This document shows, piece after piece, positions 35,412-55,808 of a stretch of DNA of 57,258 nucleotides. The notes under the pieces are model-generated. The model ran no database searches and was not told where the DNA came from. It worked only from the letters and a program-made list of their open reading frames with translations. This DNA is from Caulobacter sp. CCH9-E1 (GTDB taxonomy: Bacteria > Pseudomonadota > Alphaproteobacteria > Caulobacterales > Caulobacteraceae). The stretch covers positions 1 to 57,258 of the forward strand of contig NZ_LSJA01000276.1 in the NCBI RefSeq assembly GCF_001556515.1, in the 5' to 3' direction. Position numbers and translations under genes: made by a program. Position 1 is the first letter of the stretch; the number at the start of each line of letters is the position of its first letter.

Positions 35412-35440
35412 CGTCGTCCCCCCAAGGGCCTCTTTTTTGT

Positions 35441-37711: not shown

Positions 37712-37915
37712 ATGACCCTCGATCGCGCCGTGCTGGCCTTCGCCGGCTTCGTCGTTCTGCTCGGGCTGGCGCTCGCGCACTTCGTCCATCCGTACTGGAT
37801 CGGCCTTTCGATCTTCGCGGGCCTGAACATGATCCAGGCCGCGTTCACCGGCTTCTGTCCGGCGGCGATGATCTTCAAGAAGCTGGGCGTCAAGCCGGGG
37901 ACGGCGTTCCGCTGA
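37712..37915 (+). CDS. DUF2892 (YgaP-like) membrane protein
   Basis: A 67-residue protein with two hydrophobic segments (AVLAFAGFVVLLGLALAHF and YWIGLSIFAGLNMIQAAFTG) and the family ending GFCPAAMIFKKLGV. The DUF2892 domain is found alone or fused to rhodaneses, as in YgaP, where the cysteine may take part in sulfur transfer. ATG 37712 has AAAGGAAA upstream. Its stop overlaps the tolC start (TGATG). Confidence 0.85.
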   Translation: MTLDRAVLAFAGFVVLLGLALAHFVHPYWIGLSIFAGLNMIQAAFTGFCPAAMIFKKLGVKPGTAFR

Positions 37916-39183
37916 TGCGTCGCGCCGCCCTGATCGCCGCCGCCGCCCTGCTGGTCTCGCCGTCCATCGGCCAGGCGACCACGCTGGAAGAGGCCATCGC
38001 CGCGGCGCGCGCCTACAATCCGCAGATCCGCGCCGCCAGGGCGCGAGCGGACGCGGCCAACGCCCGTCTGGACGCGGCCAAGGGCGCGCGGCTGCCGTCG
38101 GTTGGCCTCGCCGGCGAATACATGAGCGGTCGAAACGATCTGGGCGGCTTCTTTAACTTCGCGGCGGCGGACGTCGACCCGCGTTCGGTCCGCCTGGAGC
38201 TCTCGCAACCGCTTTACGCGGGCGGCGCGCTGTCCGCGGGCGTGGACCAGGCGCGGGCCGGCCAGGCGGGCGCCCAGGCTCGCCTGGTCCAGACCGACGA
38301 TGAGCTGCAGGTCGCCGTCGCCCGCGCCTATGCCGGCGTACGCGCCGCCCAAGGCTTCTTCGAGGCGAGCCAGTCGCAAGCGAAGGCGCTCGAAGAATGG
38401 GCCCGGCAGGCGACGCTGCGCTTCAACGCGGGCGAGATCCCCCGCAGCGACCTGGACCTGACGCTGGCGCGCAAGGCCGAGGCCCGCGCGGGCGTGGCGA
38501 AGGCGCAAGCCGCCCTCGCCGTGGCCCGCGCCCATTACGCCGCGCTCGTCGGCGCCGAGCCGGTGACGCTCGAGCCGGCGGCCGACGACAGCGGCCTGCC
38601 TTCGCTGGACGAAGCCCTGGCCCGCGCCGAGACCGTCAGCCCAGCCCTCAAGGCCGCCGAGGCTGGCGTGCGCGCGGCGCGGGCGGCCGTGTCGGCCGCC
38701 GCCGCTCAGGGCCTGCCGAGCGTCAGCCTGGCCGCCCGCGCGGAGCAGGTGCGGGACCAGTTCTTTCCCGGCTACCGATCGGACGCCGTGACGGTCGGCC
38801 TGCAGGGGCGATGGACCCTGTTCGCCGGCGGACGCGTCCAGGCCGCCAAGTCCGAGGCGTCCGCGCGCGTCCGCGCCGCCGAGGCCGAGCGCGACGCCGC
38901 TCGGACCGCGCTCAAGACCGCCGTCATCAGCGCCTGGAGCGATCTTCAAGCCAATCGCCTCGCCGCGACCGCGGCCCGGGAACAGGTGCAGGCGGCCAAC
39001 AGCGCCGTCGATAGCCTGCGCCAGGAGGTGCGGGTTGGGCAACGCGCGCTGCTCGACCTCCTGGACGCCGAGCGCGACCAGCTCGCCGCGATCGCCCGCG
39101 CCCTAGCCGCGGAGGGCGAGGTGACGGCCAGCGCTCGCCAGCTTGCGGTCTTGACCGGCGCGACGCCTGGGTCGCGTCCATAA
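37915..39183 (+). CDS. TolC-family outer membrane efflux protein
   Basis: A 422-residue outer membrane factor. A signal peptide (MRRAALIAAAALLVSPSIG) is followed by two repeats of the alpha-helical hairpin (LEEAIAAARAYNPQIRAARA at the start; SLDEALARAETVSPALKAAE for the second half). It is coupled by TGATG to the DUF2892 gene. The divergent operon encodes an RND permease and adaptor without an outer membrane gene, so this is their likely partner, which would make the pump expressed together with SQR. Confidence 0.9.
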   Translation: MRRAALIAAAALLVSPSIGQATTLEEAIAAARAYNPQIRAARARADAANARLDAAKGARLPSVGLAGEYMSGRNDLGGFFNFAAADVDPRSVRLELSQPLYAGGALSAGVDQARAGQAGAQARLVQTDDELQVAVARAYAGVRAAQGFFEASQSQAKALEEWARQATLRFNAGEIPRSDLDLTLARKAEARAGVAKAQAALAVARAHYAALVGAEPVTLEPAADDSGLPSLDEALARAETVSPALKAAEAGVRAARAAVSAAAAQGLPSVSLAARAEQVRDQFFPGYRSDAVTVGLQGRWTLFAGGRVQAAKSEASARVRAAEAERDAARTALKTAVISAWSDLQANRLAATAAREQVQAANSAVDSLRQEVRVGQRALLDLLDAERDQLAAIARALAAEGEVTASARQLAVLTGATPGSRP

Positions 39184-39220: not shown

Positions 39221-40774
39221 CTAGGCTTGCGTCGCCGCGAGGCGCGAAGCCAGGGCGACGCCGTTTATCCGGCCCAGTCCGGCGCAGGCGTTCCAGCCTG
39301 GCCCGGCGGCGTATCCGGAAACACCGCCCACACTGTTGTTCCCTGAGAGGATGGCGACCGTCCCGCCGCCGCCGGCGTAGAGGTGCGGGTTCAAGAAGCC
39401 CACGCGCCTTCCCGACGCCTGGCAAAGCCGGGCGACCAGCGCGGCGTAGAGTGGAGCGACGGCGCTGGTGCCCAATCCGCTGATCCAGGTGTTCGGCGCG
39501 ACCATGATGCTGTAGCCGCTGAGACCGGAGGCGTTGCCCGCGACGTCCGGGACGCCGCGCCCGACCTTCCCGCCAGCCAGCGCGGGCGGCAGCGTCACGG
39601 CCTGCTGCCACTCCGGAACGGACATGATCTGGCTGATCCCGCCGCCGGTGACGCCGGTGCTGTCGTTCCACACGATCTCTTGGCCATCCGTCGTGATCTG
39701 AGTTCCGCCGCACGCCAGAGCGTATTGGCTCGACGCGGGATAGCCCACCTGGGGCGCCGCGCCGCCCAGGGTGACGCCGGTGTCGCCCGAGGTGGTCAGG
39801 ATCGTGACGCCCATGGCTCCGGCCGACTGAAACGCCTGCTCCATCGCCAGAATGGTCGACGCGGACCATGCGCTTTCCGGCGCTCCCCAGCTGATCGACA
39901 CGGCGTCCGGGGCGCCGCCGGGCCAGGCCAGGGCCGCATCCAAGGCGAGGATCCAGGCCTGGAACTGATTGGGCGCGAAGACGACGTAGAATTCCGCCTT
40001 CGGCGCGACGGCGCCCGCCACCTGTATGTCGAGCAGAACCTCGACATAGTTGGGCGAATACATCTGGTTCTGAGCGCCGAGCACGCCGGTGTCCGACAGG
40101 CTCGGCGCGGGGCCGCCGGTCAGGGTCTGGAACGCGTCGCCGAGCAGGGTCTCGTCATAGCCTCCGCCGAACTCCAGAAAGGCGATGCGCCGCCCCGTCC
40201 CATCGCCCGGCGGGAAGTCGTACAGAGCGGCGATCTTCTGGGGATTGGAGGTTCCGGCCAGGGGAGCGGCGGCGCTGGCGCCGCCGGCTGCGACCGCGTG
40301 GCCCACGCGCCGCGCGGCCGGTCGCGCATCCAGCCCGAGAACGGTCAGGATCTTGTCGGCGATCTGGGGCGGCACGGTCGGATCGCCCAGCGGCTGAAGG
40401 TGGTCGCGCCCCTCAAGCCGATAGTGATGCAGCTCGACGTCGAACGCCTTCTCCACCGCGGCGACCGGCCCCCGCGCGGTGATCAGGTGAAGCGCCTTGG
40501 AGATGGACACGATCTCCAGCCCCATGGAGCGAAGATACGCCTCGACGCTCGCGGTATCCGCATCATCGGCGCCGCAGGTCGACGCGAAGCCTTCATACGA
40601 CGGAAACTCGGTCGCCAAGGGCTGAGCGGCTCGGCTCTGCATGTGCGCCCGCCACGCGTCGGACGGGCGCAGGACGACGGTGACCGTCAGGATCTCATCG
40701 GGGGAGGCTCTGCCCACATGCGCCGCCCCCGATGGAGCGGGATGGTGGACGTCCTCCAGGCGCACGCGGTTCAT
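39221..40774 (-). CDS. S53 family serine peptidase (sedolisin/kumamolisin type)
   Basis: A 517-residue protein with a pro-kumamolisin-like propeptide (about 25-150) and a sedolisin catalytic domain. The catalytic Glu245 and Asp249 are in YVEVLLDIQ, the oxyanion Asp331 in SGDTG, and the nucleophile Ser437 in GTSAVAP. ATG 40774 has GGAGG upstream. No signal peptide is visible, unlike most secreted sedolisins. It is the last gene of the minus-strand arm, 48 bp after the radical SAM gene, so it may cut the leader from the modified precursor; immunity or scavenging roles are also possible. Confidence 0.85.
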   Translation of the reverse strand: MNRVRLEDVHHPAPSGAAHVGRASPDEILTVTVVLRPSDAWRAHMQSRAAQPLATEFPSYEGFASTCGADDADTASVEAYLRSMGLEIVSISKALHLITARGPVAAVEKAFDVELHHYRLEGRDHLQPLGDPTVPPQIADKILTVLGLDARPAARRVGHAVAAGGASAAAPLAGTSNPQKIAALYDFPPGDGTGRRIAFLEFGGGYDETLLGDAFQTLTGGPAPSLSDTGVLGAQNQMYSPNYVEVLLDIQVAGAVAPKAEFYVVFAPNQFQAWILALDAALAWPGGAPDAVSISWGAPESAWSASTILAMEQAFQSAGAMGVTILTTSGDTGVTLGGAAPQVGYPASSQYALACGGTQITTDGQEIVWNDSTGVTGGGISQIMSVPEWQQAVTLPPALAGGKVGRGVPDVAGNASGLSGYSIMVAPNTWISGLGTSAVAPLYAALVARLCQASGRRVGFLNPHLYAGGGGTVAILSGNNSVGGVSGYAAGPGWNACAGLGRINGVALASRLAATQA

Positions 40775-40822
40775 GATCGATCCTCCATGGTCCCGCCGGC
40801 AGCCACATCAGCCTGCTCGGCC

Positions 40823-42670
40823 TCAGAAACGCTTGCTGCTGGGCAGGCCAAGACCGGTGACGGTCTCGCCCTCCCGCCAGATCAACCCGTCCTTCTCGAA
40901 TTCCTCGAAGATGTTATCGACCGCCCGCGCCGTGACCTCGGCCCCCTCGGCCGCCAGGCGCTTGTGAACCTGCCCGACCGGCAGGTAGGTCCGGCTGATC
41001 AAGGGATAGATGGCGCTGCCGAGACGGTCGTAGAACGCGGCCTGCGGCGTTGAGCCGTGCCGGGTGTCGACGAAGCGGATCTGAGAGGCGCTCCGCGTAT
41101 AGGTCAGCTCCGGCGCGGTCTGGGGATCGGACCACGCCGCTTGCCAAGCCGCGATCCGCTGGCGCATCGGCTCATAGACCGTGTCCGGCAGCCGATGGGG
41201 GTTATGGAAGTCGAAGTAGTAGGCGATCTTTTCGGCGTCGATCGCCGTGGGATAGACCGCCGCATAGCGGGCGTCCGGACGAACTTGCGTCAGGCCCCAG
41301 CGCTCGGGCTGGCTGTGATAAGGGCTGAACCGGTCCATCCGGATCTCGCCGCAGTCATCCGGAGGCGGCAGATGACCGATACGCTCCATCAGTCCGAGGA
41401 GCTGCTGGTAGTCCTCTTCGGTCTCGCCGGGAAAACCATAGAGGACATTCCAGGCGACCTTGATCTGGTAGTAATGCGCCCATTTCAGGAAGCGTAGGTT
41501 GATGAACGAGGTGCTGCCCTTGCCCATCAGCTTCAGGATGCGCGTGTTCAGGCTTTCGATGCCTGGCTGGACCCAGACGAGGCCGCCATTGGCGAGCGCC
41601 TTGATCTGCTCTGGTTTGATGTTGGCTTTGGTCTCGTACCAGAAACCATAGTCGAGCTCGCGCCGCTCCAGGGCCCCGAAGACCTGATCGATATATCGAT
41701 GGTCAAGGATGTTATCGACAGCGAAGAAACTCCGCTGGCCGTGCCGGTCCGACAACTCGTCCAGCTCGGCGAGCACACGCGCTGGCGACTTGCTGCGATA
41801 GGCCATGCCCATCGCGTTGAGGCCGCAGAACGTGCAGTGCGACGTCTCCCCCCACCAGCATCCCCGGGCCGACTCGAAGGGGACCGAGATCCACTGCCCC
41901 TCGATCTCCCGCGGCGCGCCGTTTCGGATGATGGCCTGGAAGAAATCCCGATAGTCGGGAATGGGCGCCTCATCCATGGCCTCGACGGTCGGCGTCCGCG
42001 CCTGATCGGGGGCCGGCCCTCCCCGCCGATGGACCCCTGGCAACGGGCTGGTATCCACGTCGCCCGCGAGCTGGTCCAGGAGGAGCGGAAACACCCGCTC
42101 CGCCTCGCCCGCGACGACGATGTCGACACAGTCGACGGACCGCAGGAACTCCACGCCCATGCCGCCATCGAAATTGGCGCCGCCAAACAGGGTGATCAGC
42201 TCGGGTCGCCGGCGCTTGAGCGCGCGCGCGAGCGCCAAGGAGGCGCAGGTCTGCTCGAACATCGAGGTGAAGCCGACCGCGGTCAGCCCGGCCCAGAGAG
42301 GCTGATCAGCCAGGTCGTCGATAAACCGTGGGATGGTCTCGTTGCGCCAGGCCAGAAGCGCCGCCCGGTCCAGGCCCAATTCGGCTTCGATGCCGGCAAG
42401 GTCGCTCCGGTCGAGAAAGAGCGTCTCGTCCGGGGCGGCGTCGGCAAAGGCCGCGACGGAGAAGAGCCACTCGCCGAGCAGCCGGAACTGCTGGCGACAC
42501 AGGCGTTCATATCGCTCCCAGCCAAACAGGCCGGCGAATGCGAGGTTTCCGTACACCCCCTGCGCCCGCCAACCGCGATCGGCGGCCATCGCCGTGAGCA
42601 AGCCGATCTGAATGGACGGCAAGCGCGTCGATCCGAACGGCATGGAGACCAGCGCCAATTCACGCGTCAT
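40823..42670 (-). CDS. B12-binding radical SAM RiPP maturation C-methyltransferase
   Basis: A 615-residue enzyme. The N-terminal part (about 1-210) resembles a cobalamin-binding region (LFGGANFDGGMG, VAGEAERVFPLLL). The radical SAM cluster motif is C-x7-C-x2-C: Cys271, Cys279, Cys282 in CWWGETSHCTFCG, the pattern of the RiPP maturation radical SAM protein 1 family (TIGR03975), which methylates unactivated carbons in peptide natural products. ATG 42670 overlaps the P450 end by 11 bp and has GGAGG upstream. The C-terminal 100 residues may form a winged-helix-like domain (AVDNIFEEFEKDGLIWREGE). Confidence 0.92.
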   Translation of the reverse strand: MTRELALVSMPFGSTRLPSIQIGLLTAMAADRGWRAQGVYGNLAFAGLFGWERYERLCRQQFRLLGEWLFSVAAFADAAPDETLFLDRSDLAGIEAELGLDRAALLAWRNETIPRFIDDLADQPLWAGLTAVGFTSMFEQTCASLALARALKRRRPELITLFGGANFDGGMGVEFLRSVDCVDIVVAGEAERVFPLLLDQLAGDVDTSPLPGVHRRGGPAPDQARTPTVEAMDEAPIPDYRDFFQAIIRNGAPREIEGQWISVPFESARGCWWGETSHCTFCGLNAMGMAYRSKSPARVLAELDELSDRHGQRSFFAVDNILDHRYIDQVFGALERRELDYGFWYETKANIKPEQIKALANGGLVWVQPGIESLNTRILKLMGKGSTSFINLRFLKWAHYYQIKVAWNVLYGFPGETEEDYQQLLGLMERIGHLPPPDDCGEIRMDRFSPYHSQPERWGLTQVRPDARYAAVYPTAIDAEKIAYYFDFHNPHRLPDTVYEPMRQRIAAWQAAWSDPQTAPELTYTRSASQIRFVDTRHGSTPQAAFYDRLGSAIYPLISRTYLPVGQVHKRLAAEGAEVTARAVDNIFEEFEKDGLIWREGETVTGLGLPSSKRF

Positions 42671-43880
42671 GCGGCGCCTCCGCGAACGCCCGAGCCGTCG
42701 CGCCGGCGCCGCCTGTCGTCAGCGGCAGTGAGATCGGTCCGCGCAGCATCAGCGACGGCACGTACCTCGTGAGTCCGTTCAGCCGCCAGGGCGTCGGAAA
42801 GGCGGCGAGGCGGCGCAGGACGGCGCAAAGCTCGATCCGGGCGAGGGCCGCGCCGAGGCAGAGATGCGCGCCGTGGCCGAACGCAAGATGCCGGCCGGAC
42901 CGGCCGACAAGGAAACGGTCCGGCTCGGCGAAGACGCTGGGGTCTCGATTGGCCGCCGCCAGGGAGACCATCACGCGGTCGCCGGCCTCGATCTCGACGC
43001 CGCCCAGCCTGATCGCCTCGCGGGCCCGACGCGAGATGGTGGGAACCGGAGGGTCGAACCTGAGCCCCTCCTCCAAAAGGCTGGCGTTGGCCGCCTCGTC
43101 CCGCGACAGCAGCGACCAGGCCTCGGGACTTCCAGCCAGGTGGGCGAGAAGGTTCCCCGCGAGATTGGCGCTGGTGTCCTGGCCGCCAAACAACAGCAGG
43201 ATGGCGTCGGCCGCCGCGTTGTCCTCGCTCTCGGTCTGAGCCAGGGCGGAGAGGATATCCTCGCCTGGACAGCGCCTGCGGTCCTGGACCAGCGAGCGCA
43301 TCAGATCCCACAGGAAGACGACCTGCTCCTCGGCGCGGCGGTGCTCTTCCGCCGCCATGGGGTGACGCCCGACGAGCCGGCCCAGCACCGTGGTCAGTCC
43401 GCTAAGCCCTGGGCGCAGAGTGATCGGGACGCCGAGCAGGTCGCAGATGACATGCAAGGTCAGCGGTCGCGCGACCTCCGCCATGAAATCCCCGCCGCCC
43501 GTCGCGGCGAACGCCGTCAATCTCTCCTTGGCCAGGTCGTCGGCCAGCGGACCAGCCTTGGCCAGCGCCTTCGACAACGCCGCCCCAAGCGCCGCGCGGC
43601 GCGGGCGCTGAGGCGGCGGATCCATGAAGATGATCCAGTTTCGGATCAGGCTGTTGAAAGCCTCGGCGTCGTCGCCGCCCGTCCTCATGGCGCTCAGGGC
43701 AGGGTGCGACAGGGCTTCGGCGACAAGGGCGTGCGAGGTGACAAACCACCCTTGCAGGGACCGGCAATAGACGACCGGCGCTGTCTCGCGCAGGCGCGCC
43801 AGGCACGGATAGGGATCACGATAGAGCGACTGGTCGGCCAGAGCGCGGTCCAGCAGATTTTCAGGCGCGGCGTCACGCAC
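42660..43880 (-). CDS. Cytochrome P450
   Basis: A 406-residue bacterial class I P450. The heme-thiolate motif FGHGAHLCLG has Cys341; the I-helix oxygen motif is GGQDTS (232-237) and the K-helix ExxR is Glu271-Arg274. The frame is open to 43958, but the GTG at 43880 (MRDAAPENLLDRAL) overlaps the stop of the upstream gene by 8 bp and gives a normal length. No ferredoxin gene is adjacent. It probably oxidises the peptide product (hydroxylation or cross-linking). Confidence 0.92.
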   Translation of the reverse strand: MRDAAPENLLDRALADQSLYRDPYPCLARLRETAPVVYCRSLQGWFVTSHALVAEALSHPALSAMRTGGDDAEAFNSLIRNWIIFMDPPPQRPRRAALGAALSKALAKAGPLADDLAKERLTAFAATGGGDFMAEVARPLTLHVICDLLGVPITLRPGLSGLTTVLGRLVGRHPMAAEEHRRAEEQVVFLWDLMRSLVQDRRRCPGEDILSALAQTESEDNAAADAILLLFGGQDTSANLAGNLLAHLAGSPEAWSLLSRDEAANASLLEEGLRFDPPVPTISRRAREAIRLGGVEIEAGDRVMVSLAAANRDPSVFAEPDRFLVGRSGRHLAFGHGAHLCLGAALARIELCAVLRRLAAFPTPWRLNGLTRYVPSLMLRGPISLPLTTGGAGATARAFAEAPHDA

Positions 43881-46134
43881 GGGCGAAGCTCTCAGCCAGG
43901 AACGGTTCGACCTTCGGGTCAAGATCGAGCGTGATGAATCCCAGGCGCTCCATGTCACGCAGGTCCGAAAGGGGCAGACCGAGCTTGGCCGCCGGGCGCG
44001 CGCCGCCGCTGTCCTGCAAGGTCCGCAGGGCGGCGACCCAGTCGGCCCGCGCCGGCGCTGGCGGGCGCTGACGCCGGAAGCTCACCTGGTCGGGTTCGAT
44101 CTCCGCGACGCCGGGGCCGATCGCCGCGATCAGGAAACCGTCCAGCCTGGGCGGCAGCGGGGCTTCCGCTTCTGGCGTCACCAGCCTCCCCACGCCGAGA
44201 CGCAAGGCCGCCGCCGCCAGCTGCGCCAGGTCGAGCGGCGCTCCCCGCCCGCCCTGGTCGTCGATCACCACCGACCAAGGCCCTTCCGCCAGAAGTCTGC
44301 GCGCGGAAGGGGGCGCCAGCTGAATCAGGCAGCGACCGAACAGTCGGCGCAGATCGTCGAGGTCTCGCAGTTGAGGGCGCAAAGGGCCAAGGCGACCGCG
44401 CGCTAGGTCTATCCCGGGCACGAGAAACAGCCCCACCCCGCCCGCCATCAGCCCCCGCCCCTTTTCCGACAGCTCGGCGCCGGCGAGGTCCGCGGGATCG
44501 CTCGCGGGTCGACGAACCGCCGCCAAGCGTTCCGCCAAAGCGTCGATCTCGGGCCCGTCGGCGCACGGCGCGGCGCCATCCATCAAGGCGCGAAGGCGTT
44601 CGCCCAGACTGGCCGCCACCTCCGATAGGGCGTAGCTCGCGGACATCGGCCAGGGGCGAGCGAGCAGGCCGGCGATGGTGCGCGACGCCAGGGCTTCCGG
44701 TATCGGCTCGGCGAGAAACAAGGCCGTGCACGCCAGGGCGTGCGCCAAGGCCCCCGGCCGGTCACCTTCCATCTCCGCCATGCGCGAAAGGTTATGGGCG
44801 GTGTAGATCGCGTCGTTGCTGGTCCGGGTTCCGGCGTTGGCCCGCTCGGCCAAGGCCAGATAGCGCCGGGCTGGACCGGGCTCCTTCTTCAGGCGATAGA
44901 GCCGATGCAGGTTGATGGCGTTGATGTATTCGAGCGCCCATCGGCGCGGATGTTGCCGCGCAAGCGCCTGCTCGATCTCCAATTCGATAGCCTCGGCGGC
45001 GGCCAGATCGCCAAGGCGGGCGCGGGCCAGGGCGGAGATGTTCAGGACGTAGAGGTTTTCGGCCCGCTCCTCATGACTCGAAAATCGCGACCGGGCCTCC
45101 GCGAACAGTCGGTCGGCCTCGGAAGGCGCTCCCGTCATGACCTTGCCCCAGCCCTGAGTGAGAGTCAGGAAGCCGACCAGATCGTCGGGACAGTCCGGCG
45201 GCGCGGCTTCCGCCGCGGCCTCCGCGAAGCGCAGTCTGCCGATCCGCACCCCCTGCAGGCGGGCCAGCCAGGCCGCGCGCTGCGCCGGCGTCTTCGCCGC
45301 GGCCGCCAGCCTTTCCAGGCGAGCGATCGCCAGATCGGTATGTCCCTCGCGAAAAAGGAGCTCCGCCTCGCTGGCCAAGACGGCGGGCCGCACCAGCTCG
45401 AAGGCCCCATGGAGCTGGGCGTAACCTGAAAGCCATGGCAGGCGGGCGGCCCGGATCGCCAGCCAGTCATAGTCGGTTTTGCTGACGCTGTCGGGCCTGC
45501 GCCGAAGGGCTGGCGGCGCCGCCCAGACGCCTGGCCGCAGAGCCACGAGTCCGGCGGGCGTCGCGCCCAGCGCGGCCAAGGTTTCAGCCGAGATCAATCC
45601 GGGCGCGAGCGCCACCACCGGATCAAGCGCCCCCGGCTCGGGCTCGCCTGGCGGGTCCGAGACAAGCCCGACTCTTTCCGACCCGATCTCCTCGGATAGA
45701 AAGCTGAGGAACGCCTCGTCCGCGGGGTTCCAGGCCAGCCCCGGCAGGGGCGGAATGATCGCGACCGAACCCCGGATCAGCGGCGCCAAGCGGCGCGCCA
45801 ACGTCCAGGCGGCGCGGATCGCCGGATCACCCCCAGCTTCGAAATCGACGCCCCAGTCCGCCGTGTCGGCGAAGTCGACGCCGGGCGATAGAGACACGGC
45901 TGGCGCGCACTCGGAAAGCTCCAGATCCACGCCCAGCTGCGTCGCGAGATCACGCGGCGCCTGCCAAGGCAGATAACCCGTTAAAGTTGCGTCCACGATC
46001 AGGGGCGCGACGCCTTCCCAGTACAATTCCTTGGCCCCAAGCGGAAGAATCTCTCTCCATACGTGCGCTGGCGATCGAGGCGGCGCGAGCGCGGATTTTG
46101 ACACATCCCCGTCGTCGTGAAGCCGCGAGATCAT
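43873..46134 (-). CDS. Unrecognised large protein of the RiPP cluster, TPR-like middle
   Basis: A 753-residue protein that I cannot assign. ATG 46134 has AGGGA 8 bases upstream; frames further up lack support. Three regions are visible: an N-terminal part (to about 230) with the segment LPPLPGLAWNPADEAF of possible Rossmann-like or radical-SAM-partner character, a middle (about 230-510) of helical repeats like TPRs (ELLFREGHTDLAIARLERLA, ARLGDLAAAEAIELEIEQAL), and a C-terminal part rich in Leu/Arg/Pro ending in FLAESFARA. No P-loop, metal site or signal peptide is evident. It is the first gene of the minus-strand arm and divergent from the precursor, so it may hold leader, substrate or enzyme complexes together (inference). 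Confidence 0.75.
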   Translation of the reverse strand: MISRLHDDGDVSKSALAPPRSPAHVWREILPLGAKELYWEGVAPLIVDATLTGYLPWQAPRDLATQLGVDLELSECAPAVSLSPGVDFADTADWGVDFEAGGDPAIRAAWTLARRLAPLIRGSVAIIPPLPGLAWNPADEAFLSFLSEEIGSERVGLVSDPPGEPEPGALDPVVALAPGLISAETLAALGATPAGLVALRPGVWAAPPALRRRPDSVSKTDYDWLAIRAARLPWLSGYAQLHGAFELVRPAVLASEAELLFREGHTDLAIARLERLAAAAKTPAQRAAWLARLQGVRIGRLRFAEAAAEAAPPDCPDDLVGFLTLTQGWGKVMTGAPSEADRLFAEARSRFSSHEERAENLYVLNISALARARLGDLAAAEAIELEIEQALARQHPRRWALEYINAINLHRLYRLKKEPGPARRYLALAERANAGTRTSNDAIYTAHNLSRMAEMEGDRPGALAHALACTALFLAEPIPEALASRTIAGLLARPWPMSASYALSEVAASLGERLRALMDGAAPCADGPEIDALAERLAAVRRPASDPADLAGAELSEKGRGLMAGGVGLFLVPGIDLARGRLGPLRPQLRDLDDLRRLFGRCLIQLAPPSARRLLAEGPWSVVIDDQGGRGAPLDLAQLAAAALRLGVGRLVTPEAEAPLPPRLDGFLIAAIGPGVAEIEPDQVSFRRQRPPAPARADWVAALRTLQDSGGARPAAKLGLPLSDLRDMERLGFITLDLDPKVEPFLAESFARA

Positions 46135-46214
46135 GGATATTTCCCTGAAAATACAGCCGTTTATCGAACTATCACTCTCTTGGGGCGAGTTGATCGCGCG
46201 TGATCGCATGCGGT

Positions 46215-46231
46215 CAACTTGGAGCAAGTTG
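46215..46231. promoter_or_regulatory. 17-bp interrupted palindrome in the RiPP divergent promoter
   Basis: CAACTTG-GAG-CAAGTTG has perfect 7-bp arms. It lies 81 bp before the TPR-like gene start and 97 bp before the precursor ATG, in the only shared control region of the cluster. An overlapping AGTTGA/TCAACT pair sits just to its left. It is the best operator candidate for a regulator encoded elsewhere. Confidence 0.5.
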
Positions 46232-46327
46232 CACCACCATAAGCAGTATTGCAAGATATAACCACCTAAGCTAGTTGTTGATAGCGCGAATAGACGCGCT
46301 CCACCCAACTCAACCTAGGAGATACCT

Positions 46328-46645
46328 ATGTCCGACTATATCGCCGAGTTCAAAGCGGCGGTGCCGAAGGCGATCGCCCAGGCTTGGAGTGATCCGCAGT
46401 TCGATTCCCTGCTGCTCAGCAATCCCAACAAGGCCTTCGCTTCCTTGGGCGTCGTGCTGCCTGACAACGTTCAGCTGCGTTTCGTGAAGACCGATGCGGC
46501 CGACGCCTCGAACTGGACGCTGGCCGAGAACGGCGGCAAGCACCTCATGACCATCCCTCTTCCGCCGGCTCCTGGCGGCGGCGTGACCGGCAGCGCCACC
46601 GCCGCCGGCGACTGCTCAAGCTCCAGCATCTGCTGCACCGCCTGA
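46328..46645 (+). CDS. RiPP precursor peptide, nitrile-hydratase-like leader
   Basis: A 105-residue precursor. TAGGAGATACCT precedes ATG 46328. Residues about 5-80 match the NHLP leader pattern: AIAQAWSDPQFDSLLLSNPN, LGVVLPDNVQLRFV, then TIPLPPAPGGG. The tail VTGSATAAGDCSSSSICCTA carries the likely core with eight heterocyclisable residues (Cys96, Ser97-100, Cys102, Cys103, Thr104). The next gene is a YcaO cyclodehydratase, so conversion to thiazol(in)es and oxazol(in)es is expected. The cleavage site could be after the GGG (residue 85) or after AAG (94); this cannot be fixed from sequence. Only one copy is seen. Confidence 0.93.
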   Translation: MSDYIAEFKAAVPKAIAQAWSDPQFDSLLLSNPNKAFASLGVVLPDNVQLRFVKTDAADASNWTLAENGGKHLMTIPLPPAPGGGVTGSATAAGDCSSSSICCTA

Positions 46646-46655
46646 ATTCCTCGGC

Positions 46656-46690
46656 TCGGCCCGGCCGTCCGTTTGCGCCGACCGGGCCGA
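46656..46690 (+). terminator. Stem-loop between precursor and YcaO gene (possible attenuator)
   Basis: TCGGCCCGG (46656-46664) pairs perfectly with CCGGGCCGA (46682-46690) around a 17-nt loop, 10 bp after the precursor stop. There is no T-run, so it is more likely a partial terminator or mRNA stabiliser than a full stop. Confidence 0.5.
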
Positions 46691-46727
46691 CGCTCTGCCC
46701 CTATTCCTTGCGGCGAACGAGTTGACG

Positions 46728-49019
46728 ATGATCGATCAAACTGTGGCGAGACCTCGCTTTCGCGAGGAGTTCAAAGTTCAACAGTGCGATGGCCAGGGCG
46801 TCTTTCTCTATACGGAGGACGACTTCGCCATCCTGACCGGTCACGCCTTCGAGGCCGTCGCAAACCGATTGGACGGAACCCGAACCGCCGAACAATTGGC
46901 GCTGGACCTGGAAGGCGTCCTCGACCCTTCGCAAGTTTACTATGTGCTGATGCAGTTGCAGGCCAAGGGGTACTTGGTCGACGCGCCCCAGGCGGTGATG
47001 CCCAAGGCGGAGGCGGCGTACTGGCGCCTCAGCGGCTTCGATCCGGCCGAGGCTCGGAAATCACTGGCCGGGCGCCGCGTTCAGATTCACGCGCTGAACG
47101 GCGCCAACGAGACGGATGCGTCCATCTTGAAAGGCCTTCTGGCCGGATATGGCGTCAGCCTGGCCTCCAGCGAGGCGACCGACGACGCCGATCTGACCGT
47201 CGTCCTGACCGACAACTATCTCAACCCAGCGCTCTCCCGCTTCAACGCGGCGACCATAGCCGGAGGCAAGCCGTGGCTGCTGGCCCGCCCGGTCGGCATC
47301 CAGAGCTGGCTCGGCCCCTATTTCGACGGCCAGAACGCCTGCTGGAGCTGTCTCGCGCAGCGGCTCCGCGGACATCGGATGGTCGAGACGTTCCTGGAGA
47401 ACAAGCTGAATCTGGACGGACCGCCGAGTGCGGCCTTCGCCTCGACGCCGGCCACCCGGGCCACGGCGCTGGCGCTGCTCGCCGAGGAGATCGCGCGCAG
47501 CCTAGCCGGCGCGCCGCGCATGAAGAACAAGGTGGTCAGCTTCGATCACAACGCCATGACGACGGCGGAACACGTCCTAGTGCGCCGCCCGCAGTGCCCT
47601 GATTGCGGGGATTCCAGCATCAAGGACGGGACGGTCATCGCGCTCGAGCCCTGCGCTCGCACCTTTACGGCCGAGGCCGGACATCGCTCGATATCGCCGG
47701 AAGAGACCGTCCGGCGTTTTCAACACCACGTCAGCCCGATCACCGGCGTGATCCGGGAGCTCACATCGCTTCGCCAAGAGGGCGACGACGTCAAATGCAT
47801 CTACGGCGCCGGCCACAACTTCGCGATGATGATCGAAGACGTGTCCTTCCTCCGCGCCACGCTCCGCATGGGGTCGGGCGGCAAGGGCAAGACAGACACC
47901 CAGGCCAAGGCCAGCGCGATCGGCGAGTCGCTCGAACGCTATTCCGGCCTCTTCCAGGGCGATGAACCGCGCCGTCTGGGCCGCATGGTCGACATCGGCG
48001 AGTCGGCCATCCATCCCAACGACTACCTGCTGTTCAGCGACAATCAGTTCCGCAATCGCATCGATTGGAACCGGGAGCATGACCGCTACCAATATGTGCC
48101 GGAACCCTTCGACCCCGAACGGCCGGTGGAGTGGACGCCGCTGTGGTCGCTGACGCAACAGCGCTTTCGCCACCTGCCGACGGCTTGCTGCTATTACGGA
48201 TACAGCCACCACAGCCTGCCACGCGACCAGAAGATATGGGCGGCCTTCTCGCATGCGGATTCAAACGGCTGCGCGGCGGGAAACACGCGCGAGGAAGCGA
48301 TCCTGCAGGGACTTTTCGAACTGGCCGAGCGCGATAGCGTCGCCTGCTGGTGGTACACGCGCTGCCAGCGCCCCGCGGTCGATCTATCGGGCTTCGAGGA
48401 GCCGTATTTCGACCGGATCCAGGCTCACTATCGCGCCATGGGCCGCAAGATCTGGGTTATCGACGTCACCAACGACACCGGCATCCCGACCTTCGTCGCC
48501 GTATCCTGCCGAGAGGACTCGGCGCACCAGGAGATCATCTGGGGCTGCGGGGCCCATCTTGAAGCGCGCATCGCCATCCTTCGCGCCCTGACCGAGGCCA
48601 ATCAGTTCCTAGCGGCGTTCGATCGGTTCACGACCGACGGCGACCGCTACATCGGGTTCGATCCCGAAGCCGTGCGTTGGTTCCAGACGGCCCATATGGA
48701 TGACCAGCGCCACCTGGCGCCCAATCCCGACCTTCCGGCCCGCCAGGCCCGGGACTACGCCAGCGCCCCGGCGGGCGACCTGACGGAAGAACTGCGGGAC
48801 TGCATCGGTCGCCTCGAAAGACTGGGATTGGAAGTGCTCGTCCTGGATCAGACCCGGGCCGACGTCCAACTGCCGGTCGTGCGCGTCGTCGTTCCCGGCC
48901 TCAGGCACTTCTTCGCCCGCTTCGCGCCGGGGCGGCTGTACGACGTTCCCCATGCGCTCGGTTGGGCTCCGACCCAACTGTCGGAAAGCCAGCTCAATCC
49001 GATCCCGGTCTTCTTCTAG
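46728..49019 (+). CDS. Fused leader-binding and YcaO cyclodehydratase (azoline-forming)
   Basis: A 763-residue TOMM/LAP cyclodehydratase. Residues about 10-90 look like a leader recognition (RRE, winged-helix) domain (FAILTGHAFEAVANRLDGTR). Residues about 100-300 are E1/ThiF-like with a structural zinc site Cys205/Cys208 (CWSC) and Cys290/Cys293 (CPDC). The YcaO domain (about 325-763) has the ATP/Mg motifs AIGESLERYSG and QGLFELAERD, and ends NPIPVFF, a proline-rich tail like that of active YcaO enzymes. ATG 46728 is chosen; a TTG two codons earlier is possible. It should convert Cys/Ser/Thr of the core to azolines with ATP. Confidence 0.93.
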   Translation: MIDQTVARPRFREEFKVQQCDGQGVFLYTEDDFAILTGHAFEAVANRLDGTRTAEQLALDLEGVLDPSQVYYVLMQLQAKGYLVDAPQAVMPKAEAAYWRLSGFDPAEARKSLAGRRVQIHALNGANETDASILKGLLAGYGVSLASSEATDDADLTVVLTDNYLNPALSRFNAATIAGGKPWLLARPVGIQSWLGPYFDGQNACWSCLAQRLRGHRMVETFLENKLNLDGPPSAAFASTPATRATALALLAEEIARSLAGAPRMKNKVVSFDHNAMTTAEHVLVRRPQCPDCGDSSIKDGTVIALEPCARTFTAEAGHRSISPEETVRRFQHHVSPITGVIRELTSLRQEGDDVKCIYGAGHNFAMMIEDVSFLRATLRMGSGGKGKTDTQAKASAIGESLERYSGLFQGDEPRRLGRMVDIGESAIHPNDYLLFSDNQFRNRIDWNREHDRYQYVPEPFDPERPVEWTPLWSLTQQRFRHLPTACCYYGYSHHSLPRDQKIWAAFSHADSNGCAAGNTREEAILQGLFELAERDSVACWWYTRCQRPAVDLSGFEEPYFDRIQAHYRAMGRKIWVIDVTNDTGIPTFVAVSCREDSAHQEIIWGCGAHLEARIAILRALTEANQFLAAFDRFTTDGDRYIGFDPEAVRWFQTAHMDDQRHLAPNPDLPARQARDYASAPAGDLTEELRDCIGRLERLGLEVLVLDQTRADVQLPVVRVVVPGLRHFFARFAPGRLYDVPHALGWAPTQLSESQLNPIPVFF

Positions 49020-49046
49020 ACGTCGCGCCTTTTCCAGGATCAGGTC

Positions 49047-50483
49047 ATGACAGCCCTCCAACATGGCCCCTCGCCCGCCGATCTCGGGTTAGCGCTGGCG
49101 CAGACGGCGACGCTGCGCCACACCGACGATGCCATCGAAGTCACCAGTTTCCGCCGGTCCTTCAGGATCACCGACCTTCGGCCGGAAATCAGCGCGCTGG
49201 TGGATTCGCTGCGTCATGGTCCGCGCTCCCGCTCCGATCTGGCCGTCGCGCCATCGGCGGGAGACGGACTGGAGGGCGCCCGGATCGACTATGTCCTCAC
49301 CCAATTCGATCGCATGGGCGCTCTGTCGCGCACCTTGACGGTCGACGGCGAAGGCTTGGCCACCCTGCACCCCAACCACGGCTTTTCGCCGCAACCGCCG
49401 CTGATCCACGCGGACGGAACCTATCGGCTGAGCCGCTTCGCCGCGCTGCAACCCTACCATTGCGGGCCAGAGACCGGCTGGCAGCTCACCTCGCCCTTGG
49501 GCGCGGCGAGGCTGGTGCTGACGGATACGCGGTGCGTCGCCGCGGCGGCCGCGCTGGTCGACGGCCTGACCCCAGCCGCCCTGGCCGAGCGCGCGCGGCT
49601 GCCCCTCGATGTCACGGCCGCCCTGCTCCAGATGATCGTCTGGTGCGGCGCGGCGGAACGCCAGGCGCACGACGGCGCCCTGCCGGAAGAGACCAGCGTC
49701 GCCTTGCGTCATTGGGAGCCGCACGATCTGCAGTTCCATACGCTCTCGCGCCTGGGCCGCCATCAGGGCGTCTTCGGCGGCGCCTTCCCCTTCCGCGGCG
49801 TGGAGCCGGAACTCCCCGCCATACGACCGCTGGCGACCGAGAATATCTTGCCCCTGAAGCGGCCCGATCCCGCCGCGCTGCGCCAGGCCGACCCGCCGTT
49901 CGCCCATGTGCTGCAATCGCGCCAATCGATACGGACCTTCGCCTCCCGGCCGCTTGAAATGGACCAGGTCGGCGAGTTTCTGTTCCGGTCGGCGGCGCTC
50001 AAGGAGGTGCGGCGCAAGGATGGGATCGAGGTGGCGTTCTATCCCTATCCCGGCGGCGGGGCGCGATCGGAGTTGACCCTCTATCTCGCCGTTCCGACCG
50101 ACCAGGCTCTGGAGCCCGGCCTCTATCGCTATGAGGCCGAAGCGCATGGGCTGACGCGCCTCTCAAGCCTGACGACGGAGGTCTCGGAGCTGCTTACAGA
50201 CGCCAAGACCACGGCGGGGCTAGCGGGACATCCGCCGCTGCTGCTGATCATCGCCGCGCGCTTCCGACGGGTAAGCTGGAAGTATCGCGCCATGGCCTAC
50301 GCCGTGATGCTGAAGAACGCCGGCGCGCTCATCCAGACCCTCTACCTGAACGCCACGGCGATGGGGCTTGCGGGCTGCGCCCTGGGCGGCGGCAACGCCG
50401 ACCTGTTCTCCCGCGCGATCGGCAGCGACTATTATGAGGAGACCTCCATCGGCGAGTTTGTCCTAGGCCCGATGCCGGCATGA
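49047..50483 (+). CDS. SagB/ThcOx-type FMN azoline dehydrogenase
   Basis: A 478-residue protein. The C-terminal half (about 290-478) is a nitroreductase-fold FMN oxidase: QSRQSIRTF binds FMN, ARSELTLYLAV and IIAARFRRVSWKYRAMAYAV are SagB-type signatures, ending GEFVLGPMP. The N-terminal half contains wHTH-like segments (LALAQTATLRHTDDAIEVTS, LAERARLPLDVTAALLQMIV) as in other SagB homologues. It would oxidise azolines to aromatic thiazoles/oxazoles. It starts 27 bp after the YcaO gene and overlaps the M20 gene by 4 bp. Confidence 0.9.
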   Translation: MTALQHGPSPADLGLALAQTATLRHTDDAIEVTSFRRSFRITDLRPEISALVDSLRHGPRSRSDLAVAPSAGDGLEGARIDYVLTQFDRMGALSRTLTVDGEGLATLHPNHGFSPQPPLIHADGTYRLSRFAALQPYHCGPETGWQLTSPLGAARLVLTDTRCVAAAAALVDGLTPAALAERARLPLDVTAALLQMIVWCGAAERQAHDGALPEETSVALRHWEPHDLQFHTLSRLGRHQGVFGGAFPFRGVEPELPAIRPLATENILPLKRPDPAALRQADPPFAHVLQSRQSIRTFASRPLEMDQVGEFLFRSAALKEVRRKDGIEVAFYPYPGGGARSELTLYLAVPTDQALEPGLYRYEAEAHGLTRLSSLTTEVSELLTDAKTTAGLAGHPPLLLIIAARFRRVSWKYRAMAYAVMLKNAGALIQTLYLNATAMGLAGCALGGGNADLFSRAIGSDYYEETSIGEFVLGPMPA

Positions 50484-51640
50484 TCGCCGAGCGCGACATC
50501 GCGGCCCGGGCCGAGGCGCGGCTCGCACAATGGCTGCCCAAGCTGGTCGATCTATCGGACAGGCTATTCCACGCCCCCGAACTGGCCTTCGTCGAGTACG
50601 AGGCGGCGCGCCTGCTCTGCGAGACGCTGTCCGGCGCCGGCTTCGCCGTCGAGACTGGCGTCGCGGGCATGCCCACCGCGTTTCGCGCGAGCGCCGGATC
50701 GGGAACCCGCGACCTCATCCTCTGCGCGGAATACGACGCCCTGCCGGGGATTGGTCACGCATGCGGCCACAACCTCATCGCCGCCGCCAGTTTGGGCGCG
50801 GCCCTGGCCCTCGCCCCGGAAGCCGATCTCCTGGGCCGCCGCATTCAGGTTCTGGGCGCGCCCGGCGAGGAATGTCTCGATAACGGCGGCAAGATCCGGC
50901 TCTTCGACGCGGGCTTCTTCGACGCCGCCACAGCGGTTCTCATGGTCCATCCGGCCCCGTTCGACGCCGCCGGACCACGCATGGGCGCGGGCGGTCTGTG
51001 GCGCTATCGGTTCCACGGCGATGGCGGACATGCGTTCGGAGGCTGGGGTGCGCGTCTGGCTGAAATCTCGGATGCGCTGATGATGGCCGAGCTGGGCCTC
51101 ACCCTGCTGGCCCGCAGGTTGGCGCCCAGCGAAGGAATCTCTGTCCATCGCGCGACCGACAGCGGCGCGGTGAATTGCCGGCCCCGCGCGGGAAATCTGG
51201 AGGTCGCCGTGCGAGCGCCGACCCTGCGCGACCTGCTGACCTTGGCCGACCGGATCACGCTCAGCGTAACGGGCGCCGCCCAGGCCGCCGAGCTCAAATG
51301 CGAGGTGCTGCCGCCCGAGCGCCCCTATGTCGAATTCTACCCCGATCCGGCGCTGGCCACGGCGTGCCGAGACGTCTTCGATCGCCTGGGACGACCAAGT
51401 CGGGACGACCTTCCGCCGCTGACCATCACCACCGATCTCGGGCTGGTCTCGACCCTGGCTCCCTGCCTGCACGCCTTCATCGCGCTTTCGCGAGACGGAA
51501 GCGCGAACCACGACGCCGCCTTCGCGAGCCACTGCATCGGTCCGGATGCGGAACGGTGCGTCCACGACGGCGCGCTGGCGTTGATTGGGACCGCGATCCG
51601 TCACTGCCTGTCGGAAGACAAGCCGTCGGGCGGGTGCTGA
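50480..51640 (+). CDS. M20 family metallopeptidase / amidohydrolase
   Basis: A 386-residue di-metal hydrolase of the M20 (ACY1/AbgB-like) group. The metal-binding segment is AEYDALPGIGHACGH with Cys95 and His97, the catalytic base pair Glu130-Glu131 is in GAPGEECLDNGGK, and a further His157 is in LMVHPAP; the dimerisation insert lies near 165-290. It overlaps sagB by 4 bp, so it belongs to the cluster. It may trim the N-terminus or an acyl group from the matured peptide, or act in self-resistance. No signal peptide. Confidence 0.87.
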   Translation: MIAERDIAARAEARLAQWLPKLVDLSDRLFHAPELAFVEYEAARLLCETLSGAGFAVETGVAGMPTAFRASAGSGTRDLILCAEYDALPGIGHACGHNLIAAASLGAALALAPEADLLGRRIQVLGAPGEECLDNGGKIRLFDAGFFDAATAVLMVHPAPFDAAGPRMGAGGLWRYRFHGDGGHAFGGWGARLAEISDALMMAELGLTLLARRLAPSEGISVHRATDSGAVNCRPRAGNLEVAVRAPTLRDLLTLADRITLSVTGAAQAAELKCEVLPPERPYVEFYPDPALATACRDVFDRLGRPSRDDLPPLTITTDLGLVSTLAPCLHAFIALSRDGSANHDAAFASHCIGPDAERCVHDGALALIGTAIRHCLSEDKPSGGC

Positions 51641-51988: not shown

Positions 51989-53182
51989 ATGGGACGTTCA
52001 CTTCACAAACTGACCGCAATCCAAGCAGCGAAGCTCAACAAGCCAGGCCGCCATTCCGATGGCGGCGGCCTCTATCTCTCGATCGATGAGAGAGGGCGTC
52101 GGCGGTGGGTCTTCATGTACACGCGAGCCGGTAAGCGCGTTGAACTAGGGCTTGGAGGCCGCCGCGATCTTTCCCTGGCGGACGCTCGCGCGGAAGCGGC
52201 GACTTTCCGCGCAATGCTGGCGGCAGGCGCCGACCCCAAGGTCGAGCGCGCCAGGGACGACAAGGTCCAGACCTTCGGCGCCTGCGCCGATGCCTACGTT
52301 GAAGCCATGCAGCCCTCATGGCGTAACGCCAAGCACGCCGCGCAATGGAAGATGACGCTCACCAAATACGCCGCGCCGATCCGCGAGCGCCCGGTCAACG
52401 ACATCGCCACACAGGACATTCTGGACGTTCTGCAACCGCTGTGGACCCGCACGCCCGAAACGGCCGAGCGTTTGCGCGGGCGGATCGAGAACGTCTTGGA
52501 TGCGGCTAAGGCCAAGGGATTGCGCACTGGCGAGAATCCGGCGCGGTGGCGGGGCCATTTAAACCAGCTCCTGCCCAAGCGACAGCGATTGAAGCGCGGC
52601 CATCATGCGGCATTACCCTACGACCTCATGCCTGAGTTTATGGCCAATCTCCGCACGCGCAGCGCGGTTGCAGCCCGCGCCTTGGAGTTCTTGATCCTAA
52701 CCGGCGCGAGATCGGGTGAGGTGCTGGGCGCGACTTGGGATGAGTTCGATCTCCAAAAGGAGATCTGGACGGTGCCAGCCGCTCGCATGAAGGCCGGCCG
52801 CGAACATCGCGTCCCCCTCTCAAGTCGCGCGATGAAGATCATCGCCGAGCGACTTGAGGCCGGATCGGTCGGTCATGTGTTCCCAGGCGCAACTTCGGCG
52901 TCACCGTTGTCCTCTATGGCCATGGCGATGCTGCTGCGGAGAATGAAAAGCGACATCACCGTACACGGCTTTCGGTCAACGTTCCGCGATTGGGCCTCAG
53001 AGACGACGGGTTTCTCGCACGAGGTCTGCGAGATGGCCTTGGCCCATACCATCGCCAACAAGGCTGAGGCTGCCTACAGGCGTGGCGACCTGTTCGAGAA
53101 GCGCCGTAAGCTGATGGAAGCGTGGGCTGGTTACTGCTCCACTCCGAAGAGCGGGAAGGTCGTAGCCTTGCGCCATGGCTAG
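51989..53182 (+). CDS. int: P4-type tyrosine recombinase/integrase
   Basis: A 397-residue site-specific recombinase. The N-terminal arm-binding domain (DUF4102 type; LTAIQAAKLNKPGRHSDGGG) is followed by a core-binding region (about 95-190) and the catalytic domain with Arg241 (GARSGE), Lys268, His326 and Arg329 (HGFRSTFRDW), His353 (LAHTI) and Tyr363 (AYRRGDL), so all catalytic residues are present. TGGAGG precedes ATG 51989. Its end overlaps the convergent alpA gene by 4 bp. Confidence 0.95.
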   Translation: MGRSLHKLTAIQAAKLNKPGRHSDGGGLYLSIDERGRRRWVFMYTRAGKRVELGLGGRRDLSLADARAEAATFRAMLAAGADPKVERARDDKVQTFGACADAYVEAMQPSWRNAKHAAQWKMTLTKYAAPIRERPVNDIATQDILDVLQPLWTRTPETAERLRGRIENVLDAAKAKGLRTGENPARWRGHLNQLLPKRQRLKRGHHAALPYDLMPEFMANLRTRSAVAARALEFLILTGARSGEVLGATWDEFDLQKEIWTVPAARMKAGREHRVPLSSRAMKIIAERLEAGSVGHVFPGATSASPLSSMAMAMLLRRMKSDITVHGFRSTFRDWASETTGFSHEVCEMALAHTIANKAEAAYRRGDLFEKRRKLMEAWAGYCSTPKSGKVVALRHG

Positions 53183-53379
53183 CCGACGTCGGGGCGGTAG
53201 TTAGCGGGATCGGCGATCCACCGATTGATCGCGGACTCGTGCCATCCAGCACCGTGGACGCTGATTGGAACTTGGCGAGGGAAAGTGCCCTCGCCGATCT
53301 TCCGATAAAGGGTCGATCGGCTAAGGCCCGTGCGCGCCAGCACGGTTTTGAGGCGAACGATACGGTCGAGATCGGCCAT
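53179..53379 (-). CDS. alpA: AlpA-family DNA-binding protein
   Basis: A 66-residue winged helix-turn-helix protein. RLKTVLARTGLSRSTLYRKI followed by FPRQVPISVHGAGWHESAIN is the AlpA/excisionase pattern. Such proteins control integrase expression or act as recombination directionality factors in P4-like elements. The 211 bp between it and the next gene on the same strand contains no gene that I can support. Confidence 0.9.
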   Translation of the reverse strand: MADLDRIVRLKTVLARTGLSRSTLYRKIGEGTFPRQVPISVHGAGWHESAINRWIADPANYRPDVG

Positions 53380-53590
53380 CGTTTAAGCTCCACAGACTGG
53401 GATCTGAAGGCATTCGATGAGCCAGAATTGGATCGCTCTCCGCTGGCGGCAAGGCCTTGCGGGGCGGGATCGTACTCTGGGAAACAAAGACAGGCCCTAG
53501 GCACCTCTAGCGTAGGTAAGACCGGACCTTCACGATGCTGGCTGCGCCTCGGCACCGCCAATTTCGTCCTGGCTCCCCGTATTGGCTGCG

Positions 53591-53827
53591 CTATTTTTTT
53601 AAACGCACACCGGCGCCGAGGAAGTCATCCTCGGCCTCAAACACGATGCCAGCATCTTCCAGTGCCCGCCTTGCAGCCTGGACGTTAGCCGCCGTACTGC
53701 GTTCAGGCCCCAGGGTTTCCATACGTCGGATGGTATGGAGGCTGAGTCCGGACGCCTCGGCAAGCTTCGGCCCACTCCAATCGAGCAGGCCGCGAGCAGC
53801 CCTCATTTGGCCTGCGGAGATTTTCAA
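53591..53827 (-). CDS. XRE-family helix-turn-helix regulator
   Basis: A small regulator with the HTH segment GPKLAEASGLSLHTIRRMET. The frame is open to 53908 (105 residues), but related element proteins start MKI-x-A-Q-x-RAARGLLDW, which fits the TTG at 53827 and gives 78 residues. It is divergent from the four-gene cassette and may control it. Confidence in the start is low. Confidence 0.75.
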   Translation of the reverse strand: MKISAGQMRAARGLLDWSGPKLAEASGLSLHTIRRMETLGPERSTAANVQAARRALEDAGIVFEAEDDFLGAGVRLKK

Positions 53828-53920
53828 GTTGTCATCTTTAGTGTGAGATGGCACTTTTAGTTGGACTTGATGCTGTGAACACGGTACAAGGCGACTAATA
53901 CACATCAAAGGTCAGAGGTC

Positions 53921-54418
53921 ATGAGTCCGCGTCGAAAGACGGGGCGCGAACCTGCGCGCCCATGTGAGCCCTCACGGCGGGCTCTGATAGCCAGCCTTTC
54001 GGTCGCGCCTCTGATCGGCGATGCATCTGCGATGCACGCTCGGATCGATCCTAGTATCGACACCTGCCATCGCTGGCTCGCCATCGACGCCGAGCAGCGC
54101 CGCCTCCAACTCGAATGGGGCAGGCTCGAAGGCCGGCTGATGACCAAGCACGATTGGTACAAGCTCACGCCGGACCAACAGGCCACGATCCCCGAAGGCG
54201 CCAGACTTGCCGAGATCGATGCGCGTCTCGATGTGCTGGAGGTCGAGGGACACGCCCTCCTGAAGGCGATGCGGCCAAAACCGGCGAAGAGCTTTGAAGC
54301 GGTCATCGCCAACCTCTCGGTGGCGGCGCGGCTGATCTTCGTTGAAGATCATCCCGAGGCCCACGGCCTCATCACCCGCGCGGCCCGCGACCTCGCCGCG
54401 CTCTCGGGTGGAAAGTGA
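53921..54418 (+). CDS. Small element protein, paralogue A of the cassette
   Basis: A 165-residue protein that I cannot assign. Near the N-terminus SRRALIASLSVAPLIGD looks like a twin-arginine segment without the usual hydrophobic length. The rest is helical and charged, with CHRWLAIDAEQRRLQLEWGR and a probable coiled coil to about 115. A protein of the same length and pattern is encoded at 55210. Its last codons overlap the GTG start of the HEPN-like gene. It leads a four-gene run where every junction overlaps. Confidence 0.65.
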   Translation: MSPRRKTGREPARPCEPSRRALIASLSVAPLIGDASAMHARIDPSIDTCHRWLAIDAEQRRLQLEWGRLEGRLMTKHDWYKLTPDQQATIPEGARLAEIDARLDVLEVEGHALLKAMRPKPAKSFEAVIANLSVAARLIFVEDHPEAHGLITRAARDLAALSGGK

Positions 54419-55707: not shown

Positions 55708-55808
55708 CCGCGCCCCCTCCGGCAACCGCCTTGCCCACCCCACCCTGCGGGAGCCAGGACCGGAACGGTCGGTGCTCGCCCTGGAGCGCTTGGAGAGCGT
55801 CTGCCGGG

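Follow-up and report, generated by a model that had tools for sequence, protein, structure and literature searches.

A putative NHLP-leader azole peptide gene cluster with radical SAM, P450 and S53/M20 peptidase genes in Caulobacter sp. CCH9-E1

Gene content and organization

The DNA analyzed here, referred to as the window, is a 57,258-nucleotide (nt) stretch of contig NZ_LSJA01000276.1 from Caulobacter sp. CCH9-E1, in which eight genes spanning 39221–51640 form two divergent, tightly packed arms resembling a biosynthetic cluster for a ribosomally synthesized and post-translationally modified peptide (RiPP; Table 1). An earlier note on this DNA had named a precursor peptide, a YcaO fusion, SagB, a radical S-adenosylmethionine (SAM) enzyme, a cytochrome P450, an M20 hydrolase and an S53 peptidase in two divergent, overlapping arms. 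Family matches confirm all of these genes and the coordinates bear out the arrangement, with neighbors inside an arm overlapping by 4, 8 or 11 nt or separated by 27, 48 or 82 nt. Missing from that list was the first gene of the minus-strand arm, which encodes a TPR-like protein of 753 amino acids (aa). The P450 gene is present as claimed, but its start most likely moves from 43958 to the GTG at 43880, 8 nt inside the upstream TPR-like gene. On the plus strand, AGGAG precedes the ATG of the precursor gene and the YcaO fusion starts at ATG 46728.

Table 1 Genes and features of the putative azole peptide cluster.
Feature	Position	Strand	Domains and remarks
Precursor peptide, 105 aa	46328..46645	+	NHLP-like leader, kept PLPPAP, variable spacer, tail GDCSSSSICCTA
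LynD-type YcaO fusion, 763 aa	46728..49019	+	Winged-helix part resembling a RiPP recognition element (RRE), E1-like and YcaO parts
SagB/ThcOx-type azoline dehydrogenase, 478 aa	49047..50483	+	TIGR03605, PF22767
M20 hydrolase, HmrA-like, 386 aa	50480..51640	+	PF01546; first 4 nt lie within the SagB gene
TPR-like protein, 753 aa	43873..46134	-	TPR-like middle; P450-fused in two relatives
Cytochrome P450, 406 aa from GTG 43880	42660..43880	-	PF00067
TIGR03975 radical SAM C-methyltransferase (predicted), 615 aa	40823..42670	-	TIGR03975, Cx7Cx2C
S53 peptidase, kumamolisin-like, with pro-domain, 517 aa	39221..40774	-	Prokumamolisin match, PF09286
Gap between divergent arms, 193 nt	46135..46327	.	Presumed promoter region

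Precursor peptide

The precursor matches the NHLP models TIGR03793 (E 2e-7, 30.8 bits) and TIGR03795 (E 3.3e-7, 30.6 bits) significantly yet beneath their curated cut-offs of 50.9 and 41 bits, and on this similarity we class its leader as a divergent NHLP-like leader. Precursors from Burkholderia stagnalis (E about 1e-8, one-locus tblastn) and Bradyrhizobium (E 6e-8, one-locus search) also match the leader, both scored without composition correction.

Six precursors were aligned, and P0138, 99% identical to that of the window, was left out of the statistics (n = 5; P numbers denote relatives of the window's proteins). On average, pairs share 73% identity in the leader (columns 1–83), 35% in the spacer (columns 84–95) and 84% over the last ten columns, as expected if the leader is cut off and the product stays the same. 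PLPPAP is conserved ahead of the variable spacer. The near-constant tail reads C-S-S-S-S-I-C-C-T-G/A; all five distinct precursors keep the S-S-S and C-C-T runs, while the Ile occurs in four (absent from P0142), the first Cys in four (Ser in P0140) and a final Gly in four (Ala in the window's). This Cys/Ser/Thr tail is C-terminal and the leader similarity N-terminal in the window precursor; aromatic residues are absent from the conserved tail, and Ile is its sole aliphatic side chain. Because five distinct precursors carry almost the same tail, the cluster likely makes one conserved product.

On a plasmid of Bradyrhizobium sp. 155, an unannotated NHLP-like precursor ending in GSPPCCC (L003:8314-8619; L numbers denote loci) lies before YcaO and SagB genes.

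Azole-forming enzymes

The YcaO fusion, which has a leader-binding domain and is encoded next to the precursor gene, matches PF02624 (E 2.1e-99), the winged-helix model PF21084 (E 2.4e-6), TIGR03604 (E 1.4e-78) and TIGR03882 (E 2.8e-40). It aligns with LynD over residues 11–762 of 763 (603 bits), MusD and TruD also match, and the SGGKGK, GExLERY and DSNGxAAGN motifs are intact. SagB scores 137.3 bits against TIGR03605 (E 3.7e-40), above the cut-off of 78.4, and matches the ThcOx model PF22767 (E 1.1e-13) as well as cyanobactin-type oxidases. Leader docking, ATP-driven cyclodehydration and azoline oxidation are established for LynD- and ThcOx-type enzymes. Based upon these precedents, the precursor leader would dock onto the winged-helix part of the YcaO protein, which, using ATP, would cyclize Cys, Ser and Thr of C-S-S-S-S-I-C-C-T, and SagB would then convert the azolines to azoles, for a maximum of eight rings, arranged as two blocks flanking the Ile.

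Links between the two arms

The divergent arms could be read as two adjacent pathways, in which the plus-strand arm yields a simple azole peptide and the radical SAM enzyme, P450 and S53 peptidase of the minus-strand arm have another substrate. We consider this unlikely given the gene neighborhoods of relatives and the result of a tblastn search, which found no second precursor within the window. In Thalassospira marina (L001), an NHLP-like precursor, a YcaO homologue (41%), a ThcOx-P450 fusion and an S53 homologue (36%) are consecutive, with the P450 and S53 homologues directly downstream of YcaO. A LanM gene lies upstream, and the window's TPR-like protein has no match in this locus, which as a whole (L001:4926-15709) may encode a pathway of the dehydrazole kind in which oxidase and P450 are fused. 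In Tistrella mobilis (L005), a homologue of the TPR-like protein (33% over 430 aa, E 3e-30) adjoins YcaO and SagB homologues. Longest-contig sizes agree as well: YcaO P0006 and the TPR-P450 fusion P0126 have the same size (23233), as do YcaO P0008, TPR-like P0128 and precursor P0142 (8334), and YcaO P0007 and precursor P0141 (122388), which is a strong but indirect sign of one shared contig in each case. Through these relatives, the P450, the TPR-like protein and S53 appear tied to the azole core. The radical SAM enzyme is linked more weakly, by the azole-containing proteusin nostatin A (see below) and one distant case in Paracoccus denitrificans (L006), where a TIGR03975-like radical SAM gene (37% identity) is followed by YcaO and SagB homologues; this distance is what speaks for two separate pathways.

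Both of the latter loci lie on plasmids and are unannotated. That of Tistrella mobilis (L005:7224-13347) also holds a 421-aa open reading frame (ORF) and a small Cys-rich ORF ending with the stretch CCCTCTPACCCTAG. That of Paracoccus denitrificans (L006:8556-14020) holds a 371-aa ORF and, before the radical SAM gene, a 130-aa ORF rich in Cys, in which CVIQQC/CVISQC-like units recur.

The YcaO relatives considered are the best 120 of 624 matches. In a tree, the window YcaO and P0005–P0013 form one group (support 100/100) next to P0033, and pattern scans of reference genomes contained no members of this group. Scanning those genomes with the single YcaO gave no relatives, and with the YcaO alignment one Nostoc locus at 42% (38 stretches). 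No relatives were found among viral contigs.

Radical SAM enzyme, P450 and TPR-like protein

With 609.9 bits, the TIGR03975 match of the radical SAM protein clears the cut-off of 281.85, and the protein carries the Cx7Cx2C motif at residue 271. A check of this protein and of YcaO for loss of catalytic residues found the motifs sought present in both. Passages of PMC5682303 and PMC11285071 describe Cx7Cx2C as an uncommon motif, reported for PoyC and proposed for the polytheonamide and bottromycin methyltransferases, and PoyC is described as methylating Ile and Val (PMC11285071). Since Ile is the only aliphatic side chain in the conserved tail, by analogy with PoyC the window's enzyme would C-methylate the peptide most likely at that Ile. 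Among 194 cyanobacterial genomes, 153 match TIGR03975 at E 0.001 and 0 above the cut-off.

A Streptomyces globosus plasmid (L007:8716-10920) encodes a RiPP precursor of the pheganomycin family and, after it, a TIGR03975-type radical SAM protein 41% identical to the window's.

The P450 matches PF00067 (E 2.7e-20) with GGQDTS, EGLR and FGHGAHLCLG motifs intact. At E 0.001, neither Pfam nor NCBIfam has a family matching the TPR-like protein, whose predicted structure has a confident helical-repeat middle and poor ends. In P0126 and P0127 a TPR-like protein and a P450 are joined as one chain, whose P450 portion shares 53% identity with the P450 of the window, and these fusions suggest that the TPR-like protein is a P450 partner. 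Relatives of the TPR-like protein in plasmids number 1 in 72,556 records, and its alignment gave 0 matches in the 194 cyanobacterial genomes, a search rated uninformative. We propose that the P450 together with the TPR-like protein would oxidize the peptide.

The usual partner in P450 cross-links is an aromatic residue, which the conserved tail lacks, and for methylation the tail offers no aliphatic side chain besides Ile. It is thus very unlikely that the P450 cross-links or macrocyclizes the tail instead of hydroxylating it and that methylation by the radical SAM enzyme falls on a residue besides Ile, even though passages of PMC10676384 mention RiPP-associated P450s that cross-link side chains, Pro is the proposed methylation target of NstA, the radical SAM enzyme of the nostatin A pathway (passages of PMC11583998), and P0142 has no Ile.

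S53 and M20 peptidases

The S53 peptidase aligns with prokumamolisin over residues 14–512 (E 1.6e-95) and its pro-domain matches PF09286 (E 3.3e-21). Residues E245, D249, D331 and S437 align with prokumamolisin, and we take these to be the Ser-Glu-Asp-type catalytic residues of the sedolisin family. In both the window's S53 (39221–40774) and that of Thalassospira (L001:14081-15709), Asn or Ala replaces the prokumamolisin Asp near GNN and GPGW, positions presumably forming the calcium site. The M20 protein matches PF01546 (E 4.1e-8), resembles HmrA and retains the catalytic motifs to be expected, namely Cys-Gly-His, Glu-Glu and His.

Family scans for LanM, S8, epimerase and exporter proteins covered 40 of the 50 chosen window ORFs, the other ten being all ≤184 aa. 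Because an S8 peptidase removes the leader in carnazolamide biosynthesis, and because none of the 40 scanned ORFs matched an ABC exporter-peptidase, we infer that S53 and M20 act as leader peptidases. S53 would cleave in the variable spacer, past PLPPAP, and M20 would trim the remainder. The terms S53, M20, kumamolisin and sedolisin have 0 occurrences in the main text of a review of RiPP leader proteases (PMC10885120), and in the open-access literature, as far as its accessible passages go, we found neither peptidase described for RiPP leader removal. A cluster of the same product type might instead use S53 and M20 for self-protection or recycling, with the TPR-like protein as a peptide-sensing regulator; we regard this as quite unlikely.

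Comparison with known systems

The closest described pathways, judged from the accessible parts of their papers, are those of nostatin A and carnazolamide, neither of which has this gene set, and term searches of the open-access literature found no description of a matching cluster. The nostatin A pathway (nst, Nostoc) shares with the window an NHLP-type leader, a cyclodehydratase, an azoline oxidase and a radical SAM C-methyltransferase, in its case NstA, a class B cobalamin enzyme (passages of PMC11583998). Its differences are the length of the core, 30 residues, and two further enzymes, a LanM-like dehydratase and a PoyD-like epimerase; the searched passages of that paper contain 0 occurrences of P450 or peptidase (PMC11583998). 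In the window, the conserved tail is ten residues long, a P450 and its TPR-like partner occur alongside S53 and M20, and none of the 40 scanned ORFs matched LanM or an epimerase.

Carnazolamide and the dehydrazoles (cca) likewise combine an NHLP leader, YcaO, a dehydrogenase and a radical SAM enzyme. However, according to passages of PMC10676384 that radical SAM enzyme is an epimerase rather than a C-methyltransferase as predicted here, the serine peptidase that removes the leader is the S8 protein CcaF rather than an S53, and a LanM-type dehydratase is the defining feature of dehydrazoles; no LanM-type (DUF4135) dehydratase matched among the scanned ORFs.

The NHLP-Burk two-chain family of thiazole/oxazole-modified microcins (TOMMs; TIGR03795) resembles the window in its leader, a YcaO fusion adjoining the precursor, the lack of an NHLP exporter and a Pro-rich PxxP stretch ahead of the core (passages of PMC2887384). 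Its Burkholderia precursors are tandem pairs with short Cys ends (PMC2887384), whereas the window's is single, with a long tail ready for azole formation. The window leader scores under the TIGR03795 cut-off and the two YcaO proteins are only 32% identical.

With the cyanobactin enzymes LynD, TruD, MusD and ThcOx the window shares the full-length YcaO architecture and the SagB/ThcOx type, but the leaders differ, no PatA/PatG-type S8 protease matched among the scanned ORFs, and the YcaO of the Gloeothece cyanobactin pathway is not joined by the window YcaO group in the tree. In plantazolicin, Ile residues lie between two azole blocks, a layout also predicted for the window product; its leader and enzyme set are different, and it is not known to involve a radical SAM enzyme or a P450.

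The earlier note had compared the cluster with bottromycin. Bottromycin has an N-terminal core with a follower (passages of PMC11285071), whereas the window precursor has an N-terminal NHLP-like leader and a C-terminal tail, and the window's YcaO is of the LynD/TruD/MusD type and its M20 HmrA-like. The analogy is a loose one, and NHLP-leader azole peptides such as nostatin A and carnazolamide are closer.

Neighboring genes

A TolC-type gene (37915–39183) and an RND-type pump (31168–35603) lie to the left of the cluster. Directly to its right is a tyrosine-type integrase, and window positions 51989–57258 also show lower GC content at third codon positions, a sigma-70 region 4 protein and a ROS/MUCR regulator. 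This region is possibly the end of a mobile element; no tRNA was seen there. Near the left end of the window, a gene for a haem-oxygenase-like protein (40–972) precedes consecutive genes for a cyanophycin synthase-like protein, an Asparaginase_2 protein and an S51 peptidase (1035–5621), likely a set for making and degrading cyanophycin.

Proposed pathway and implications

The earlier note's YcaO/SagB RiPP pathway with a TIGR03975 Cx7Cx2C radical SAM enzyme, a P450 and two peptidases is supported; the azoles, C-methylation and oxidation that it proposed for the product are predicted features. We consider it reasonably probable that the cluster directs biosynthesis of an NHLP-leader azole peptide (azole proteusin/TOMM-like) through all the steps outlined above, with a product that is probably C-methylated at Ile and oxidized. 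The chemistry, step order, cleavage site and product are what we infer from the observed gene content, motifs, conserved tail and part of the gene links.

Several findings weigh against this pathway. The leader falls short of both NHLP model cut-offs, and the B12-binding domain of the radical SAM protein scores a weak 20.6 bits against PF02310, below the cut-off of 32.1. One of the five distinct precursors (P0142) lacks Ile, making the methylation target not universal. Neither the radical SAM enzyme nor M20 has a match in the Thalassospira locus, and for M20 the 4-nt overlap with SagB is the sole link to the other genes. Finally, six of the ten TPR-like and precursor relatives compared (P0124, P0125, P0127, P0129, P0139 and P0140) match no YcaO in contig size among the best 120 of 624.

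More tentatively, the cluster may represent a distinct NHLP-leader azole peptide subclass with a near-fixed product, in which two azole blocks surround a C-methylated Ile, the P450 is complexed with its TPR-like partner, and S53 and M20 release the product. The types of machinery are known; the combination, the near-fixed tail and some helper genes look new, and the TPR-P450 and S53/M20 pairs are the most interesting parts. The pathway is small and clearly bounded, and because the tail predicted to be modified is both short and near-fixed, the product is predictable and testable by co-expression. If the proposed pathway is true, a P450 with a dedicated TPR-like partner, along with S53 and M20, would join the known routes by which azole peptides are made and released, and the tail would offer a short substrate for the study of radical C-methylation next to azoles.
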